The notes under the pieces: model-generated
What the model saw: only the letters and a program-made list of their open reading frames with translations
Databases searched by the model: none
What the model was told of the DNA's origin: nothing
Virus record (IMG/VR): IMGVR_UViG_3300046318_000260
Location: 1 to 64,000 of that record
Origin: a virus
DNA: 64,000 nt
Strand: one strand, 5' to 3'
Position numbers and translations under genes: made by a program
Shown here: one piece after another, positions 1 to 12,553 of the stretch
How the letters are laid out: every line of letters starts with the position of its first letter
Position numbering within the stretch: position 1 is the first letter of the stretch

Positions 1-105
1 GGATTTGTACCACAAAAATCTTGGTGGGTATGGCTTTTTATTACAATAGTATTATTTGCTTATGCTCTTTGTTTAAATGAACAACAGTCAATAATTATAA
101 TTTAA
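1..105 (+). CDS. C-terminal fragment of a small membrane protein (partial, cut by window edge)
   Basis: An open frame runs from base 1 to a TAA at 103-105 and gives 34 residues. They include a hydrophobic stretch rich in W, L, I, V and F, followed by a polar tail. This looks like the end of a small single-pass membrane protein whose start lies outside the window. The next gene starts 16 bases downstream in the same direction, so it probably belongs to the same string of small early genes. Function unknown. Confidence 0.5.
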   Translation, partial: GFVPQKSWWVWLFITIVLFAYALCLNEQQSIIII

Positions 106-121
106 CTAAACAACAAGAACA

Positions 122-349
122 ATGAAAAAGATAAAATTTGGATACAGACTTATTCAACTTAATTTGCTGTATTGGATTATATACAACACATATTTTGGTT
201 GGAATTTACATCCAGTAAGCAAGGTTGAAGAAAACTTTGATTATGTGTTTTCATTTATTTGGAGAGTAGCTATTATAATATATTTAATGCCACTAGTATC
301 TTTGTATGAATCAGCTATTAAATCAAAAAGCAATGAGAACAGTTTATAA
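122..349 (+). CDS. small membrane protein, hypothetical
   Basis: The 75-aa product has two hydrophobic stretches, about residues 11-30 and 43-62, separated by a polar loop and followed by a short charged tail. It is therefore a probable two-pass inner-membrane protein. The start is preceded by an A-rich leader (acaacaagaaca) and no Shine-Dalgarno sequence, as is usual for Bacteroidetes and their phages. The end overlaps the next gene by 17 bases. I recognise no family; a role in host-membrane takeover is only a guess. Confidence 0.6.
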   Translation: MKKIKFGYRLIQLNLLYWIIYNTYFGWNLHPVSKVEENFDYVFSFIWRVAIIIYLMPLVSLYESAIKSKSNENSL

Positions 350-587
350 ATATCAGTTAGATCTTGGTACAGTAACTATAGAGTTACCAGAAAATGCAGA
401 AATAATTACTGTAGGAAAAGATCCACATGGAAAATATTCATTGTGGGCAATTGTAAATACTGAAGCCGTGAAGGTAAAGAAAAATTTTAAAATTTTAGGT
501 ACAGGGAGTGAAGTACCCAACAATGCTTGGTATATTGACTCTTTTATAGATGGAGCATTTGTGTGGCATGTCTTTGAACTTGTGTAA
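333..587 (+). CDS. small soluble phage protein, DUF7352-like
   Basis: The preferred start is the ATG at 333 (MRTVYKYQLDLG), giving 84 aa; an upstream in-frame start at 306 would overlap the previous gene more. The layout resembles small phage proteins placed in DUF7352: an N-terminal KYxL strand, a central LWAIVN segment, an FKILGTG motif and a C-terminal FVWHVFE. The function of that family is unknown to me. It lies in a run of overlapping early genes. Confidence 0.65.
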   Translation: MRTVYKYQLDLGTVTIELPENAEIITVGKDPHGKYSLWAIVNTEAVKVKKNFKILGTGSEVPNNAWYIDSFIDGAFVWHVFELV

Positions 588-589
588 TC

Positions 590-796
590 ATGAAGCATTT
601 CATTAAGTTTACTACAGTCTGGATTAGTCAGAACTTAGCTATTCCATTCTGGACTATTGGTCATATTCACTTGATGACTACTGTATACCAAGATATTATG
701 GAGATACTAGCTTCATTTGGTATGAATATCATAGTGGCAATTGGCTTCTGGATAAACTACAGGGATGATAAAAAACAACAAAATGGCACTAATTGA
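590..796 (+). CDS. small membrane protein, hypothetical
   Basis: The 68-aa product has a hydrophobic C-terminal half (about residues 37-55, ILASFGMNIIVAIGFWI) and a charged tail ending in DDKKQQN. A weaker hydrophobic stretch lies near residues 10-25. It starts two bases after the previous stop and overlaps the radical SAM N-half gene by 14 bases, which suggests translational coupling. Family unknown. Confidence 0.6.
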   Translation: MKHFIKFTTVWISQNLAIPFWTIGHIHLMTTVYQDIMEILASFGMNIIVAIGFWINYRDDKKQQNGTN

Positions 797-1193
797 AAAA
801 GTTACTAGAAAGTCTATGATCATAAGACCATCTGGAAGATCTACTGACTTTATCAGTCCTTCTTTTGGATTTGGCTGCTTATATGACTGTACTTATTGTG
901 TGACTCCTGATACTCTTATTACTACTCCTCAAGGTTTAAAAATGGCTGGAGAAATTCAGGAAGGAGATCAAGTAATTTCTTTTTCCCTGGATACCGAGAA
1001 AGTTGAAACAGACTTAGTGACTGTAATTGGTCAACGGGATACTGATGAACTTTATGTAATTGAAGTAGATGAACAAACTGTGACCGTAACTGGAGAGCAT
1101 CCTTTTTATACAAAAAATAGAGGTTGGGTAGAAGCAAAACATCTAACTGAAGATGATGAACTACTTTGTGATACGGGTGATTTAATCCAATAA
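783..1193 (+). CDS. Radical SAM (spore photoproduct lyase-like) N-terminal fragment fused to split-intein N-half
   Basis: The 136-aa product starts at ATG 783 (MALIEKV). Residues 1-38 are the start of a SplB-like radical SAM enzyme, with the cluster motif CLYDCTYC at 32-39. The third cysteine, C39, is also Cys1 of an intein: from there the sequence is a Hint domain opening CVTPDTLITTPQG, with block-B motif TGEHPF, ending at a TAA at 1191-1193. The rest of the enzyme is encoded separately from 1742. By itself this chain cannot bind the 4Fe-4S cluster. I infer that it is spliced in trans to the downstream product; the restored enzyme would repair UV photoproducts or carry out related radical chemistry. 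The gene overlaps the previous one by 14 bases. Confidence 0.88.
   Translation: MALIEKVTRKSMIIRPSGRSTDFISPSFGFGCLYDCTYCVTPDTLITTPQGLKMAGEIQEGDQVISFSLDTEKVETDLVTVIGQRDTDELYVIEVDEQTVTVTGEHPFYTKNRGWVEAKHLTEDDELLCDTGDLIQ
897..1190 (+). other. Split intein N-half (IntN)
   Basis: This covers 98 codons from Cys1 (TGT 897-899) to the end of the reading frame. Block A reads CVTPDTLITTPQG, and block B contains TGEHPF with the expected TxxH Thr and His. The sequence ends DDELLCDTGDLIQ and then a stop, without an endonuclease domain or C-terminal blocks. The size fits known natural split-intein N-halves, roughly 100 residues. The matching C-half lies at 1742-1861. Confidence 0.9.
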
Positions 1194-1743
1194 TGTTATT
1201 AGGATCAAATACATCTATGTCAGCAAGTTTACAGAACCATCTTGGAATAATGTGATGGTAATCTATGTTATCAGTAGTATTAGTTAATGCACAGTGTGTA
1301 AAGTTTAGATTTTTTTTGAGCTTGTACCAATCATTAGACTGATATTCTATAGCATGTGAAGTTCCATGTATATAGTTAGGATTTCCGGGGCCTTGATATC
1401 TTTGAGATATAATTTGACCCTGGCTTTTCTTACCAAGCCCTTGTTTAGTGCAATCAGAACAGTAACCTTTTCTAGCTTTAGATTTAGGTGACTGTTCACC
1501 ACAGATTTTACAGAGAATCCATTTAGTATGAGCAGAGGGAAGTGTTCTATCAATAGTAAATAATAGACCTTCAAACTTTTTCATAGTTCTAAAGTCTCTG
1601 TTATAATGCTTACTGGCTTCTTGAAAAGTTCTAAATGTAGGTTTAGACTGTTGATTAAACAATTCAGTATAACTTGTCTCACATGTAGAATTACAATAGG
1701 TTGTAGACTTTTTTGTAATTTTACCACAATATTTACAGCTCAT
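922..1743 (-). CDS. HNH homing endonuclease, antisense between the split-intein halves
   Basis: The 273-aa product has two N-terminal zinc-ribbon-like motifs: CKYC with a later CNSTC (residues 3-21), and CKIC with CSDC (78-98). An HNH nuclease core follows: DYHHIIPRW (161-169), NNIIGLNHPYHK (182-193) and HH at 196-197. It runs opposite to the two intein halves. Its start codon shares the CATG at 1741-1744 with that of the C-half gene. Beyond about residue 184 it is antisense to IntN, so the last HNH ligands are encoded in overlap; the tail past residue 200 may simply follow from that overlap. The role is probably homing of the fractured locus into intein-less or intact alleles. Known fractured genes with split inteins carry free-standing endonucleases in this position. 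Confidence 0.82.
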   Translation of the reverse strand: MSCKYCGKITKKSTTYCNSTCETSYTELFNQQSKPTFRTFQEASKHYNRDFRTMKKFEGLLFTIDRTLPSAHTKWILCKICGEQSPKSKARKGYCSDCTKQGLGKKSQGQIISQRYQGPGNPNYIHGTSHAIEYQSNDWYKLKKNLNFTHCALTNTTDNIDYHHIIPRWFCKLADIDVFDPNNIIGLNHPYHKVVHHLQLDVLLLPNLYFLYKKDALQLRSQFVHLLQLHKVHQYPVDQLQSLSLFQLSRYPGKKKLLDLLPEFLQPFLNLEE

Positions 1744-1861
1744 GGAGTTAAAATTTAAGAAAATAAAAGTTATTACAAAGATAGCAAAGCAATCTAAGGT
1801 TGTTAACTTTTCTGTACAAAAGAATGAAAATTATTTTGCAAATGGTGTTCTTACACATAAC
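1742..1861 (+). other. Split intein C-half (IntC)
   Basis: Forty codons end in the canonical His-Asn of block G, followed directly by the +1 cysteine (TGC 1862-1864). Block F reads NFSVQKNENYFANGVL. Size and motifs are those of a natural split-intein C-half of about 35-40 residues. All residues needed for splicing (Cys1, TxxH, HN/C) can be seen across the two halves. Confidence 0.9.
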
Positions 1862-2617
1862 TGCTATATGAAAAGACACAAACCGGAAGGATTAACTGTA
1901 GCCACTAATACTGGTGATATCCTGACAGAAATAAACTCACATGCTTTCTTTGCTACGGTAGACAAACCAAATCAAACTGGTGAGTTCATTACTTATGATA
2001 TATCATGCAATGAAGACTTTGCTCTGCATGCTAAGCATCATGACTGGAAAACCATTTTTCAGTTCTTTAAAGATCATCCACTTGCTATGGGTTCATTTGC
2101 AACTAAGCATTATAATAAGGAGTTGTTGAATTTTAATCCTGAAGGTAAAGTAAGAATTAGATTTAGTCTAATGCCTTTTGAGTTACATCAACATCTTGAA
2201 CCTAATACAAGTGGTATTCAAGAAAGACTTTCAGCTGTTAACATGTTTTTAAGGGCTGGTTATGAGGTTCATTTAAACTTTAGTCCTGTTATTGTTCATG
2301 ATAACTGGTTACAGCATTATGAGAACTTATTTAAAAATGTTGCAGTTATGGCAAAACATTTTGGTTGGGATGACGACAGAGTTAAAGCTGAGGTAATCTT
2401 TTTAACTCATAATGAAGGAAAGCATCATTATAACTTAGCTCACAACAAACCAGGAGAAGAACTCTTGTGGGTACCGAAATTGCAAGAAAGCAAAACCTCC
2501 CAGTATGGTGGGAGAAACTTAAGGTATGAACATAATAGAAAAGCAGACTACATAAAGCAGTTTGTGGAACTACATGATCAAGTAATACCTTGGAACACAA
2601 TTAGATATATATTTTGA
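1742..2617 (+). CDS. Split-intein C-half fused to radical SAM (spore photoproduct lyase-like) C-terminal part
   Basis: The 291-aa product has residues 1-40 as IntC (NFSVQKNENYFANGVLTHN) and the extein beginning at C41 with CYMKRHKPEG. Joined to the upstream fragment this gives GCLYDCTY-CYMKRH, the CxxxCxxCY signature of SplB-type radical SAM enzymes. Later motifs fit this family: RIRFSLMP, a LEPNTSGIQERLSA helix, an AGYEVHLNFSPVI strand and a C-terminal GRNLRYEHNRK. The combined mature extein would be about 289 aa. The start codon lies in the CATG shared with the antisense HNH gene, with no obvious ribosome site upstream. Substrate is inferred from the family, not proven. Confidence 0.88.
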   Translation: MELKFKKIKVITKIAKQSKVVNFSVQKNENYFANGVLTHNCYMKRHKPEGLTVATNTGDILTEINSHAFFATVDKPNQTGEFITYDISCNEDFALHAKHHDWKTIFQFFKDHPLAMGSFATKHYNKELLNFNPEGKVRIRFSLMPFELHQHLEPNTSGIQERLSAVNMFLRAGYEVHLNFSPVIVHDNWLQHYENLFKNVAVMAKHFGWDDDRVKAEVIFLTHNEGKHHYNLAHNKPGEELLWVPKLQESKTSQYGGRNLRYEHNRKADYIKQFVELHDQVIPWNTIRYIF

Positions 2618-2618
2618 T

Positions 2619-2705
2619 ATGAAAAACTACCCCTTTTGGTTAAATAACCTAATCTATTTCTTAGCAGGAATAGGATTTTACGGAATTTTATTGTATTTTA
2701 GTTAA
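2619..2705 (+). CDS. putative 28-aa membrane peptide
   Basis: ATG at 2619 begins one base after the radical SAM stop (TGATATG) and encodes 28 residues. They are mostly one hydrophobic segment (LIYFLAGIGFYGILLYF) after a short MKNYPFWLNN head. It fits the phage pattern of tiny single-pass membrane proteins, and its close spacing suggests translation, but there is no homology evidence. Confidence 0.4.
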   Translation: MKNYPFWLNNLIYFLAGIGFYGILLYFS

Positions 2706-2713
2706 TTGAAGCT

Positions 2714-2902
2714 ATGCCAGATATAACAATGTGTACAGGTACTAATTGTCCAATTAAAGATAATTGCTACCGTTATTGGGCTGAGCCTAGTGAGTATAAC
2801 CAAGCATATTTTTTTAATCCACCGTATGATGAAACAAACAAAAAGTGTAATGAAAAGTGGGAACGCAAAAGAGAACCACAAAGTAGTAGAGATTCAGGTT
2901 GA
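2714..2902 (+). CDS. small cysteine-rich protein, hypothetical
   Basis: The 62-aa product has cysteines at residues 7, 12, 17 and 45, in the pattern MCTGTNCPIKDNCYRY. Similar small Cys-containing proteins are common in phages of Bacteroidetes and may bind a metal. It overlaps the next gene by about 50 bases in another frame. Function unknown. Confidence 0.6.
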   Translation: MPDITMCTGTNCPIKDNCYRYWAEPSEYNQAYFFNPPYDETNKKCNEKWERKREPQSSRDSG

Positions 2903-3032
2903 AGAAACTACTAAGTACATAGTACAAAAAAAAGGTTTACTGTTCTGGCGTGATGTCAAAGATGAAACAGGTCAAGTTATAGTGTATGATTCTAAGAGAA
3001 AGGCTCAAGCATACATTAACTTTCTTAAGTAG
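2850..3032 (+). CDS. hypothetical protein
   Basis: I chose the ATG at 2850 (MKSGNAKENHK), giving 60 aa, because earlier in-frame codons lie deep inside the preceding gene. Residues 15-60 look like a small beta-rich domain (YIVQKKGLLFWRDVKD followed by VIVYDSKRKAQAYI), of the kind seen in short phage proteins of unknown role. The amphipathic Lys/Arg content suggests a soluble protein. Confidence 0.5.
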   Translation: MKSGNAKENHKVVEIQVEETTKYIVQKKGLLFWRDVKDETGQVIVYDSKRKAQAYINFLK

Positions 3033-3084
3033 CCGATTACTTGTGTGGCTGTTAGGAAGAGAGATATTTTTAAAGCTGCTTAAG

Positions 3085-3678
3085 ATGGGAATGTTATACC
3101 AAGTTAAGAAACACTTAACTATCAGACCTTTAGAGACTTTTGGAACAAAGCATTATCCTGGTTGTACAAAAGAACAGGAACAAATGCTGTTGAATAAAAG
3201 ATACTATAAGTTTGATGAATTTGAAGATATTGCATTGAGTATGGACTATAGAACAGTTTACCGCAAACTTCCAGAGATTAAAAATTTAGTCAGGGCTATT
3301 GTAGAAGAGCACTATTACATGACTAAGAATATTGATCAAAACTTGCATTATTTATGGCATTTATATTATGTTGGTACAAAGGCTGGTGATTACCGGCCTT
3401 TTATTTTATTAGCAGAAATACAATTGCTTAAAGCTTTAAATTATTTATCTGAAGATGAAGCCTACAACATGTCTAACATGATGGAATCAGAAGATATAGA
3501 TAACTTAAATCTTGTTTACCTTTCTATACTTAACCTTAGAAAGAAACGGATAGAAGAACATGGTGAGTTTGACAAAAATGTTTGCTCTGTTGAGTTAAAC
3601 CAAATAAGAAAAGACTATGCTCATACTATTCTATCTGTAGATTTATTTACCAAAGCTTTTACAAAAAAAAGAATATGA
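3085..3678 (+). CDS. hypothetical protein, alpha-helical
   Basis: Start taken at ATG 3085 (MGMLYQVKKHL), giving 197 aa; the longer frame from 2986 would overlap the previous gene. The product is mostly helical, with many Y, L, K and E residues (for example RTVYRKLPEIKNLVRAIVEEHYY) and a basic end. It overlaps the next gene by four bases. I recognise no family or catalytic motif. Confidence 0.6.
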   Translation: MGMLYQVKKHLTIRPLETFGTKHYPGCTKEQEQMLLNKRYYKFDEFEDIALSMDYRTVYRKLPEIKNLVRAIVEEHYYMTKNIDQNLHYLWHLYYVGTKAGDYRPFILLAEIQLLKALNYLSEDEAYNMSNMMESEDIDNLNLVYLSILNLRKKRIEEHGEFDKNVCSVELNQIRKDYAHTILSVDLFTKAFTKKRI

Positions 3679-3935
3679 GAGAAAGTGAATTAATTGACCT
3701 TGGTTTTCAAAAGGTAGAGATTAATGATGCTGACAGTCAGAATGGCTATGATTACTTTTATTATATTCTACAGGTGTTTGACAATCTTACACTAAGTTCA
3801 ACAGACAGTGATGTTGTTAAAAATGGAGAATGGTTTGTACATAACTTGGATTGGCCCCGCCAGTTTCAGTTAAGTACAAAAAATGAAGTGATGGGATTTC
3901 TTCAGACTGTTATTGGACAAGCCCAATATGTATAA
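3675..3935 (+). CDS. hypothetical protein
   Basis: The 86-aa acidic protein overlaps the upstream stop by four bases (ATGA). It contains a predicted strand pair around YDYFYYILQVF and an NGEWFVHNLDWP segment, seen in small uncharacterised phage proteins. There is no metal-binding or catalytic motif. Confidence 0.55.
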   Translation: MRESELIDLGFQKVEINDADSQNGYDYFYYILQVFDNLTLSSTDSDVVKNGEWFVHNLDWPRQFQLSTKNEVMGFLQTVIGQAQYV

Positions 3936-3953
3936 CCAACAAATAGTATTTAT

Positions 3954-4331
3954 ATGTTTACAGTAAAACTGATTAAACAGGATGGTAAATTAGTTTACCC
4001 AGATGATAGATCTAAACTAAACTTTCAGATCTTTATTGATAAGTTACCAGAAGGACAAGAGGTGGAGATCTTTATGGGTCCTACCTCAGATAATGCATCT
4101 GTAGCTCAATTAGCTAAAGTACATGCATGTATCAGAGAGCTAGCAAAAGAATCCGGTTATAACTTTGATGAGATGAAGACTCTCATTAAGAGACAGTCTG
4201 GTCTATGTTATGACGGAGGAGGTGCTGAATACTGTAAATCATTTGCTGACTGCAGCAAAGATGAATTAGCATTAGCAATTGAAGCTTGTATAGCAATAGG
4301 TAGAGATAACTATAATATGGAGCTTACTTAG
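3954..4331 (+). CDS. hypothetical protein, possible DNA-metabolism accessory
   Basis: The 125-aa product has an N-terminal beta-rich part (residues 1-45), then a helical part with LAKVHACIRELAKESGYNFDEMK and an LCYD...FADCSKDELALAIEACIAIG end. The helical half vaguely resembles the HxxIRELA segments of phage recombination accessory proteins such as the NinB group, but I cannot assign it. Its end overlaps the leftward gene 4324-4629 by eight bases. Confidence 0.55.
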   Translation: MFTVKLIKQDGKLVYPDDRSKLNFQIFIDKLPEGQEVEIFMGPTSDNASVAQLAKVHACIRELAKESGYNFDEMKTLIKRQSGLCYDGGGAEYCKSFADCSKDELALAIEACIAIGRDNYNMELT

Positions 4332-4629
4332 GCTCCACATAGCCTTCATCACCTGGTTGAAGAACTTCTTTTTCCTCAAACATGTTAGCAGCTATTGATT
4401 GTCTTTCAATCTCAGCAAGAAGTAAAGATACAGTATAAAAAGCTTTCTGGAGATCATCCATTTCTGCATAATCTTTTTGCAAGGTTTCTTTTACAAACTT
4501 ATCTTTATCCTCTTCTTTAATTTGTGTAAATAAGAAATAAGATAAGCCTTTTACCATAAGGTAATAGCTTTTATTGACTTTTATGTCAATAAGAGCATCT
4601 GCTTTTAATTCTTTTACTTTGATAGCCAT
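4324..4629 (-). CDS. hypothetical protein on the minority strand
   Basis: The 101-aa acidic product (MAIKVKELKADALIDIKVN...) is the only ordinary gene in the left 25 kb read leftward. It has a clear ATG, A-rich leader and normal amino-acid balance, so I treat it as real. It has a weakly hydrophobic middle (YLMVKGLSYFLFTQI) and a charged helical second half. It faces the uracil-DNA glycosylase gene across 33 bases holding divergent promoter-like elements, and ends in the tail of the preceding rightward gene. Its direction matches the virion genes, so it may be expressed late. Function unknown. Confidence 0.65.
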   Translation of the reverse strand: MAIKVKELKADALIDIKVNKSYYLMVKGLSYFLFTQIKEEDKDKFVKETLQKDYAEMDDLQKAFYTVSLLLAEIERQSIAANMFEEKEVLQPGDEGYVEPK

Positions 4630-4634
4630 TGTAA

Positions 4635-4653
4635 TAACTTTGTAACAAATTTA
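4635..4653. promoter_or_regulatory. overlapping divergent promoter -7 elements (TAnnTTTG)
   Basis: On the + strand TAACTTTG (4635-4642) and on the - strand TAAATTTG (complement of 4646-4653) match the Bacteroidetes primary-sigma -7 consensus TAnnTTTG. They lie 20 bases before the rightward start (4663) and 16 before the leftward start (4629). I see no well-spaced TTTG at -33 on the + side, so the assignment rests on the -7 boxes and the divergent layout. Confidence 0.4.
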
Positions 4654-4662
4654 ATAAAAAAT

Positions 4663-5376
4663 ATGAAACAACAACTTGATCTTGAGGATATAAAAGACAA
4701 GCTCTACCAAAAGCTAGAGAAATCAGGCTGGGCAGTAAAGCTGAGATCTTTCATCTATAGTAGTGACTTTGATAATATTATCAAACAACTGGCTAGATTA
4801 TCCACTGATGGCAAAAGATTTACTCCTAAATTAAGCCAAATGTTTAGGGCCTTTGAAGAATGTCCTGTAGATCAACTTAAAGTGGTTATTGTTGGACAAG
4901 ACCCTTATCCACAGTTTGGAGTAGCTGATGGAATTGCTTTCAGTTGTGGTAATACAAAACAAGCAGAGACTAGTTTAAAGTTTATGCTAGAAGAAGTTAA
5001 CAGACATGTCTATAAAGGTCATCCCGGATCACTTGATCCAGACTTAACCAGATGGGCAAATCAGGGTGTACTGATGCTTAACACAGCTTTGTCTACTACC
5101 GTAGGTAAAATAGGCCAGCACTACTCAATCTGGAAGCCTTTTCTTGCATATTTGTTTGACTACTTGACCTGGAATGTAAATGGTTTAGTTTTTATCTACA
5201 TGGGTAAAGAGGCTAAGCTATGGGCAGATGCAGTCAATGAAAACAATTACAAGTTTTATGTTAGTCATCCAGCAAGTGGTGCATACTCCGGAACAAACAC
5301 TTGGGATTCTCAGAATGTGTTTAATGAAACCAACAAGATTCTAGAGAATCAGTATGGTACTAAAATTAAGTGGTGA
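4663..5376 (+). CDS. ung: Uracil-DNA glycosylase (family 1)
   Basis: The 237-aa product has the family-1 signatures. The water-activating loop is GQDPYP at 78-83 (catalytic Asp80; His is commoner than Pro in the last position). The MLNTALS segment is near 138-144, and the DNA-intercalation loop is SHPASGAYSG near 201-210. The enzyme removes uracil from DNA made by cytosine deamination or dUTP incorporation. Length is normal for the family. It opens the replication block behind a promoter-like element, and its stop overlaps the next start (TGATG), suggesting translational coupling. Confidence 0.92.
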   Translation: MKQQLDLEDIKDKLYQKLEKSGWAVKLRSFIYSSDFDNIIKQLARLSTDGKRFTPKLSQMFRAFEECPVDQLKVVIVGQDPYPQFGVADGIAFSCGNTKQAETSLKFMLEEVNRHVYKGHPGSLDPDLTRWANQGVLMLNTALSTTVGKIGQHYSIWKPFLAYLFDYLTWNVNGLVFIYMGKEAKLWADAVNENNYKFYVSHPASGAYSGTNTWDSQNVFNETNKILENQYGTKIKW

Positions 5377-10294: not shown

Positions 10295-10557
10295 GTTTAG
10301 ATAACCAAATGGATGAACTTGAAAAATATCTTGATTATGCAAAGAGTTATTTTGATGATATTAAAAGTGAAACTGAGGGTATAATTTCTGATATGAGTCA
10401 GACTATACAAATGCTGCAAGAAGAAAAAGAAACACTTGAAGAACAGAATGAACTTCTTGAAGAACAAGCGGAAGACTTATCTAAGAAGGTGGCTATATTT
10501 GAGCTAGAAAACATAGAATTAAGATTAAAGCTAAATGCATATGAGTTGGGTTTATAA
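10291..10557 (+). CDS. coiled-coil protein, hypothetical
   Basis: The 88-aa acidic protein is almost entirely heptad-like from residue 28 on (IQMLQEEKETLEEQNELLEE), so a long coiled coil is likely. ATGA overlap with the primase stop suggests coupled translation. A scaffold or oligomerisation role is possible; no family is assigned. Confidence 0.6.
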   Translation: MSLDNQMDELEKYLDYAKSYFDDIKSETEGIISDMSQTIQMLQEEKETLEEQNELLEEQAEDLSKKVAIFELENIELRLKLNAYELGL

Positions 10558-10966
10558 AGGAAAAGAGTTTAATCAATTTTGTATCCCAGAAGGAGCAATT
10601 GGATTTATTTACTCTATGACAGCTATCATTGATGGCAAGTCTGTTGCATACATTGGCAAGAAGAACTTCTATGCTAACATCAAGAAACCTCTAGGTAAGA
10701 AAGCTTTGGCTATGTCTACTGATAAAAGGCTGAAGAAATACATCCGAGAGCTTAAGCCTGACTTTATTAACTACTACAGTAGTAACAAGACTCTTAAAGA
10801 AGCTCATAAAGCAGGTGTTGTAATTAAAAGGGAAATTCTAATGATTTGCTACTCAGCAATGGAATTGACTTATCAAGAAGTAAAGCACCAGTTTAAGTAT
10901 GAGGTGCTTGAAAAAGAAGAATATCTGAATGCCAACATTCTTGGCCGTTTTTACAAAACAAAATAG
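10535..10966 (+). CDS. GIY-YIG-like endonuclease
   Basis: The 143-aa product (or 141 aa from the second ATG at 10541) has GFIYSMT (about 22-28) followed by VAYIGKKNF (about 37-45), the two strands that name the GIY-YIG nucleases. A lysine-rich helix follows, and a late EYLNANILGRFY may supply the catalytic Glu and Asn. Such nucleases act as repair, resolvase-like or homing enzymes. Its place in the replication block favours a DNA-processing role, and it overlaps the coiled-coil gene by 23 bases. Confidence 0.6.
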   Translation: MHMSWVYKGKEFNQFCIPEGAIGFIYSMTAIIDGKSVAYIGKKNFYANIKKPLGKKALAMSTDKRLKKYIRELKPDFINYYSSNKTLKEAHKAGVVIKREILMICYSAMELTYQEVKHQFKYEVLEKEEYLNANILGRFYKTK

Positions 10967-11800: not shown

Positions 11801-12553
11801 ATGAAAATACTTCCTGGTTCAGAACAAGAAAAACAATTGATTACCAAATATTTAAACAGTTCACTTAGTATGTTAGCTTTTGCAACACAAGAAGGTTTAA
11901 AAAGAGGTATAATTGAAAGAATTGTTAAAAGAAATAACTTAGATAAGATTTATGAAAAAGGTAGAGCTGCTAGTAGTAGAAAAAAATTTGAGCTAAATCA
12001 AAAACTTTATACTAAAGATGGAAAACCTACAAAGTTTATATATCTTAATAGAAAAAGTGTTAAAAAGAACAATAAAACATCAACTTTATTGCATGTACAA
12101 TGTGAATGTGGAGATCAAAAATGGCTTTCTTATAGTGCAGTTATGACTGGTAATACAAGAACTTGTGGTAAATCCCCTTGTTTTCCCTTTGAAGATAAAA
12201 AAAATGTGCTTACAAGCCATAAAGGTTTATATAGATCATATGTCTATCATGCAAAGGAAAGAAATCTTGATTTTAAATTAACAGTTGAAGAGTTAATTGA
12301 CATTAGTTCTAATAACTGTACATACTGTAACAAACAACCCTCTCAATTATATCAAATATTAGATGCTAAAACTAAAAGAGTTAGATCTGGAGTTCCGTTT
12401 TACTATAACGGAATAGATAGAGTAGACAATAGTATTGGATATACTAAAGAAAATTGTGTTGCTTGTTGTAAACAATGTAATAGATGTAAAGGCAAAATGA
12501 CACTTGTAGAATTTAAAGCATGGATAAAGGCTATTCATGATAATTTATTTTAA
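11801..12553 (+). CDS. free-standing HNH endonuclease (homing-type)
   Basis: The 250-aa product has a basic N-terminal region, a first zinc-ribbon-like cluster (C101, C103, C122, C127), and a C-terminal HNH nuclease. In the nuclease, CTYC is at 173-176, GIDRVDN at 204-210 and CKQCNRCK at 223-230, followed by a helix. The GIDRxDN plus CxxC architecture is that of phage HNH homing enzymes. It is bounded by a 16-base direct repeat and has its own AT-rich leader. The surrounding genes have intact stop and start codons, so it sits between genes rather than inside an intron. Confidence 0.85.
   Translation: MKILPGSEQEKQLITKYLNSSLSMLAFATQEGLKRGIIERIVKRNNLDKIYEKGRAASSRKKFELNQKLYTKDGKPTKFIYLNRKSVKKNNKTSTLLHVQCECGDQKWLSYSAVMTGNTRTCGKSPCFPFEDKKNVLTSHKGLYRSYVYHAKERNLDFKLTVEELIDISSNNCTYCNKQPSQLYQILDAKTKRVRSGVPFYYNGIDRVDNSIGYTKENCVACCKQCNRCKGKMTLVEFKAWIKAIHDNLF

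Follow-up and report, generated by a model that had tools for sequence, protein, structure and literature searches.

A probably mobile split intein with an antisense, overlapping HNH endonuclease gene in a spore photoproduct lyase-family gene of crAss-like phage DNA

We analyzed a stretch of viral DNA (hereafter the window: bases 1-64000 of the 67,861-base virus record IMGVR_UViG_3300046318_000260) whose structural genes resemble, at low identity, those of crAss-like phages (Cellulophaga phi17:2, phi4:1, csAssE). Near its start lies a radical S-adenosylmethionine (SAM) gene of the spore photoproduct lyase (SPL) family, broken into two plus-strand open reading frames (ORFs), 765/783-1193 and 1742-2617, which are in separate frames and lie 548 bp apart, the first ending in a stop codon at 1191-1193. 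As an earlier note on this DNA had claimed, the upstream ORF ends in a complete intein N-half (IntN) and the downstream ORF begins with a complete C-half (IntC), which score above the TIGR01445 and TIGR01443 cutoffs, respectively (Table 1). The gap between the intein halves is filled, with no spacer, by an HNH homing endonuclease gene (HEG) on the opposite strand, so that an endonuclease gene sits between the halves of a split intein in a broken host gene. This antisense ORF (1743-922), its dual-coding overlap with IntN and the evidence for homing were absent from the earlier note.

Table 1 Features of the split SPL-family gene and its intein-endonuclease element (window positions)
Feature	Position	Strand	Basis or remark
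N-extein of SPL-family radical SAM protein, 38 aa	783..896	+	TIGR03886 positions 62-96, E 7.9e-8; 54 uninterrupted relatives
IntN, intein N-half, 98 aa + TAA	897..1193 (coding 897-1190)	+	TIGR01445 E 1.5e-8; PF07591 E 1.4e-13
Antisense dual-coding overlap, HEG codons 184-273 against IntN	922..1193	both	Codon-position and synonymous analyses
HNH homing endonuclease gene, 273 aa	922..1743	-	ORF; phrog_8048 match; two Cys4 (zinc-ribbon-like) motifs and HNH
HNH core, residues 160-197	1153..1266	-	H189, H192, H196 and H197 within the overlap, opposite IntN codons 86-94
CATG, overlapping starts of HEG (-) and IntC (+)	1741..1744	both	Kept in 25/27 alleles
IntC, intein C-half, 40 aa, ends His-Asn	1742..1861	+	TIGR01443 E 1.8e-4; 27-allele alignment
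C-extein of SPL-family protein, 251 aa + stop	1862..2617	+	TIGR03886 E 1e-75

The residue set of class 1 inteins is kept in full: Cys1 (897-899), the block B TxxH (here TGEH), the C-terminal His-Asn and Cys+1. C1, T65 and H68 of IntN (T65xxH68) are invariant in 23 alleles, as is the THN/C at the IntC/C-extein junction in an alignment of 27. IntN is acidic and IntC basic (net charges of -16 and +6 in the window, and of -10 to -16 and +4 to +7 across the 27 alleles), and known split inteins with opposite charges associate through charge. The halves are carried by separate ORFs that no read-through can join, and because they lie in different frames 548 bp apart, trans-splicing would be the only sensible route to the enzyme. 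An intron was also considered and rejected, as no Rfam family, introns included, matched window positions 1-5000.

Joined at the intein boundaries, the exteins meet exactly as GCLYDCTY/CYMKRH and give a 289-aa SPL-family protein. The insertion point falls directly before the third cysteine of the CxxxCxxC motif: Cys(-7) (876-878) and Cys(-3) (888-890), the first two iron-sulfur (Fe-S) cysteines, belong to the N-extein, and the third is both the first residue of the C-extein and the splicing nucleophile Cys+1. The earlier note had proposed this very junction and suggested looking for uninterrupted homologues; we found 54 distinct ones in which the extein flanks abut without gap or duplication. 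This part of the gene is conserved (GC...C.Y/CYMKRH). The 289-aa sequence matches the spore photoproduct lyase structure 4fhc in the PDB (E 5.8e-14, CxxxCxxC included), and a further cysteine aligns with the catalytic-Cys region of 4fhc (...EAACTSD...), whose cysteine we take to be the hydrogen donor C140; the phage protein thus shares with 4fhc and TIGR03886 both the CxxxCxxC motif and the catalytic cysteine. It is shorter than TIGR03886, lacking about 60 N-terminal model positions, and, scored as two pieces, falls below the curated cutoff of that family (cutoff 437.6; the C-fragment scores 255 bits).

The natural split intein in a fractured SPL-type radical SAM gene that the earlier note described thus stands, and recurs as 29 distinct elements, whereas its SplB-like repair enzyme is best worded as a putative member of the SPL family, given the missing N-terminal positions. 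Its statement that neither fragment can hold the 4Fe-4S cluster was too strong, because the intein's own Cys1 occupies the place of the third cysteine in the N-precursor (C-LYD-C-TY-C1) and formally restores CxxxCxxC; what survives of it is that each fragment lacks a complete barrel.

The same split arrangement is present at the same site in 38 viral contigs, with 29 distinct elements, and is therefore neither chance nor an assembly error; one of these contigs (L002) is identical to the window locus. An assembly fault at 1193-1742, a possibility raised in the earlier note, can be dismissed on the same grounds. The gene could instead simply be broken, its enzyme lost and the intein and antisense ORF decaying as remnants, a reading invited by its spread over two frames and by the fact that splicing is predicted. 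Yet the splicing residues are intact in the 29 distinct elements, and all 27 distinct, complete elements that we measured in detail span exactly 965 bp, counted from the Cys1 codon through the final codon of IntC. Moreover, the C-extein varies more at third codon positions (0.47) than at first and second positions (0.28 and 0.19), and synonymous change is constrained within the HEG/IntN overlap (see below), leaving mere breakage hardly credible. Another contig (L142, 157-1120) carries the element in a more divergent SPL-type gene, with an N-extein 55% identical to that of the window (GCGFNCSY/C, CYCKRH) and a HEG and intein that are about 68% identical.

The HNH endonuclease family phrog_8048 was matched by 27/27 HEG alleles. 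Invariant in the encoded protein are C3, C6, C17 and C21; C78, C81, C95 and C98; and H163, H164, N183, H192, H196 and H197, the last group including the HNH catalytic residues of a homing endonuclease (H163 H164, N183, H192/H196). The two exceptions to the shared CATG at the HEG and IntC starts (L110 and L116) have lost the HEG ATG at that place and have an in-frame ATG three codons upstream.

HEG and IntN overlap by 272 nt in the window and by 272-284 nt across 27/27 measured elements. As HEG is written antisense on IntN DNA, selection must preserve both readings. The two frames are phased such that third positions of IntN codons pair with second positions of HEG codons, and the number of single-base changes from consensus that are silent in both frames is zero; base changes in the overlap alter one protein or both, so that the genes for mobility and splicing are not easily separated. 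Synonymous codon differences in IntN drop to 0.076 in the overlap from 0.426 in the un-overlapped IntN start, with baselines of 0.228 in IntC and 0.421 in the C-extein, and in HEG they amount to 0.133 in the overlap versus 0.278 outside, a 2- to 6-fold lowering of synonymous variation. Third-position diversity behaves alike (IntN, 0.456 before the HEG stop and 0.076 in the overlap; IntC, 0.257; C-extein, 0.472; HEG, 0.300 outside and 0.122 inside), with P values of 1e-6 to 2e-12 that, as the sequences share ancestry, serve as guides and are not exact. Protein conservation does not cause this low synonymous variation, because mean protein identities are about equal across the regions (81% for overlapped IntN, 79% for HEG outside and 86% inside the overlap, 85% for IntC). 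In the IntN of gp41-1, a known split intein with no such overlap and equal protein identity, synonymous change is 3 to 10 times higher.

Could the overlap nevertheless be due to chance, so that IntN and the leading two thirds of HEG alone matter and the C-terminal extension of HEG is free read-through? Long antisense ORFs over IntN can arise by chance: in L175 (3013-3378, minus strand), the only locus found, a 121-codon antisense ORF runs across the IntN of NrdJ-1. It is this possibility that gives the codon tests their weight. In addition, the HEG tail past residue 197 has no detected homologue. Against this, the HEG frame is open in all alleles, whereas recoding IntN with extein codon usage and ignoring HEG leaves it open in 0.15-0.36% of trials per sequence, and the fall in HEG third-position diversity inside the overlap is not expected of free read-through. 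Changes altering both proteins are also depleted in the overlap (46 observed; relative rate 0.49 for HEG and 0.71 for IntN), the rate of 0.49 for changes that also alter HEG being close to the 0.40 of HEG alone, and the last HNH histidines themselves lie within the overlap. Chance is accordingly a very unlikely explanation, and both overlapping frames are under purifying selection.

The element and its host gene have different histories. In 99% of pairs, the elements are more nearly identical to each other than the exteins are; for instance, the C-exteins of L088 and L036 are 72% identical and their elements 98%. Conversely, L107 and L092 have 92% of C-extein residues in common but just 80% of the element, which means that it entered these similar hosts on separate occasions. 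On the extein tree the element changes between presence and absence at least 10 times, 5 of these changes being forced by well-supported branches. Together, these sequence patterns suggest that the element homes. In L101 (reverse-complement 2634-3156), a second, truncated N-extein copy stands upstream of the split gene and terminates at a TAA placed precisely where the intein inserts (GCLYNCSY-stop), with another ORF after it; this single case is suggestive of a break at the homing site that was mis-repaired. L088 (reverse-complement 241-1027) has an N-extein remnant upstream of its split gene; the ORF after this remnant resembles a GIY-YIG endonuclease by eye and is possibly a second mobile element targeting the SPL gene.

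A different account would have the split form kept because it regulates the enzyme, through the need for both halves and a redox trap between Cys(-3) and Cys1, and not through selfishness. MoaA of Pyrococcus abyssi is likewise a radical SAM host whose N-extein has a cysteine near the intein Cys1, although its intein is a single chain in an archaeal enzyme and the element described here is split and lies in a phage SPL-family protein. In MoaA, the N-extein cysteine can form a disulfide bond with Cys1, creating a redox trap (PMC10663303). This precedent, and the fact that the CxxxCxxC motif itself brings Cys(-3) beside Cys1, make redox dependence of SPL splicing plausible by analogy. The presence of Cys(-3) is nonetheless no evidence for a selected switch, because the Fe-S motif requires it anyway; furthermore, the patchy distribution and the incongruence between exteins and element indicate homing, and many close relatives have the gene without the element. 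We consider it improbable that regulation is what maintains the split form.

An architecture that recurs, inserts exactly, is incongruent with its exteins and is constrained in both frames leads us to conclude, with high though not complete confidence, that the locus holds a mobile natural split intein of class 1 type with an antisense overlapping HNH gene in the SPL-family gene of a crAss-like phage. Several points weigh against this conclusion. The HNH match is weak for each protein (best E 3e-5 to 5e-5), the AlphaFold model of the HEG product is poor (mean predicted local distance difference test score 58), and a Foldseek search with that model returned no significant structural match, HNH proteins appearing near the top of the list; a PDB profile search with HEG returned nothing relevant. 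Our simulations and rank tests ignore shared ancestry, and the un-overlapped IntN control comprises 8 codons that may carry extein-side recombination, making IntC and the HEG-only codons the safer comparison. In block F of IntC (VVNFSV..NEN, window 1802-1858), 27/27 alleles replace the usual Asp with Asn and the usual His with Glu, which could slow splicing; these Asp and His residues are common in inteins and not obligatory, and the block F His is retained in one distant allele (L142). Finally, we infer both splicing and DNA cleavage from sequence.

In the mechanism that we propose, the acidic N-extein-IntN precursor and the basic IntC-C-extein precursor would associate and restore the Hint fold, whereupon canonical trans-splicing through Cys1 and Cys+1 would yield the 289-aa enzyme, the +1 nucleophile left at the splice junction serving as the third Fe-S cysteine. 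Before splicing, Cys(-3) could in principle form a MoaA-like disulfide in the N-precursor. Cleavage by the HNH protein is probably directed at the conserved CxxxCxxC codons of uninterrupted SPL genes, so that the element would be copied into these genes, its insertion destroying the HNH site. In the usual intein cycle the endonuclease decays after invasion. We infer linkage as the reason for the overlap and tentatively suggest that it is an evolved lock, in which loss of mobility destroys splicing and decay to an endonuclease-free mini-intein is blocked, and in which complementary transcripts also render HEG and SPL expression mutually exclusive; this is a possibility that we hold to be somewhat less probable than not. 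With mobility and splicing on opposite strands of the same base pairs, the element offers a natural test of whether overlap stops endonuclease decay.

In 2009, Dassa et al. reportedly described genes that are fractured by split inteins and accompanied by free-standing endonucleases, gp41-1 and NrdJ-1 among them. The SPL arrangement is a fractured gene of this kind, and we retrieved gp41-1 and NrdJ-1 loci as controls. Like the SPL element, they come from phage metagenomes and have a gene that is broken at the intein, with an endonuclease ORF separating IntN from IntC. In the controls, gap length lies anywhere between 231 and 1597 bp, and the long intervening ORFs lie on the same strand, typically about 50 nt past the IntN stop with no IntN overlap, and are missing in several; by contrast, the SPL element encodes an HNH-type endonuclease that is always found, is antisense, overlaps IntN by 272 nt and sits in an element of fixed length. 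The NF038136 profile (intein-containing Rv2578c-family radical SAM proteins) aligns the extein CxxxCxxC continuously into the intein (residues 31-123), so that its intein appears from sequence to occupy the corresponding radical SAM cysteine position. That intein, in a bacterial radical SAM family, is in cis, and we know of no split form or antisense endonuclease for it. Our literature search, in which the broader queries were judged by titles, found no paper on a phage SPL intein or an antisense-overlapping split-intein homing endonuclease. The element is therefore new in its host protein, in the HNH type of its endonuclease, in its antisense dual-coding overlap and overlapping start codons, and in lacking endonuclease-free forms.

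HEG and IntN profile scans of viral contigs found the element at SPL sites only, one distant IntN-like fragment (L173) aside, and scans of cellular genome contigs with the same profiles did not find it. No endonuclease-free form emerged from the IntN scans, which could detect forms close in sequence and not distant ones. Among 50,697 deposited phage records there was no HEG match and, with the C-extein as query (E 1e-5), no SPL-family gene. Uncultured viral contigs are rich in SPL-family radical SAM genes, with at least 595 matching stretches.

Being long, recurrent in 27 measured alleles and readable by codon position, the overlap is a clean case of dual coding. The position of the intein at an Fe-S cysteine means that splicing and cluster chemistry share residues, and the two halves could serve protein engineering as a new candidate pair for trans-splicing. 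Elsewhere in the window, two more endonuclease-like ORFs (11801-12553 and 10535-10966) match phrog_1035 (endonuclease VII / HNH) and phrog_7363 (homing endonuclease, as the second-ranked match), and the phage genome may carry more than one endonuclease gene of this kind. A uracil-DNA glycosylase gene (4663-5376) lies two kilobases 3' of the SPL gene, which suggests a small DNA-repair neighborhood.
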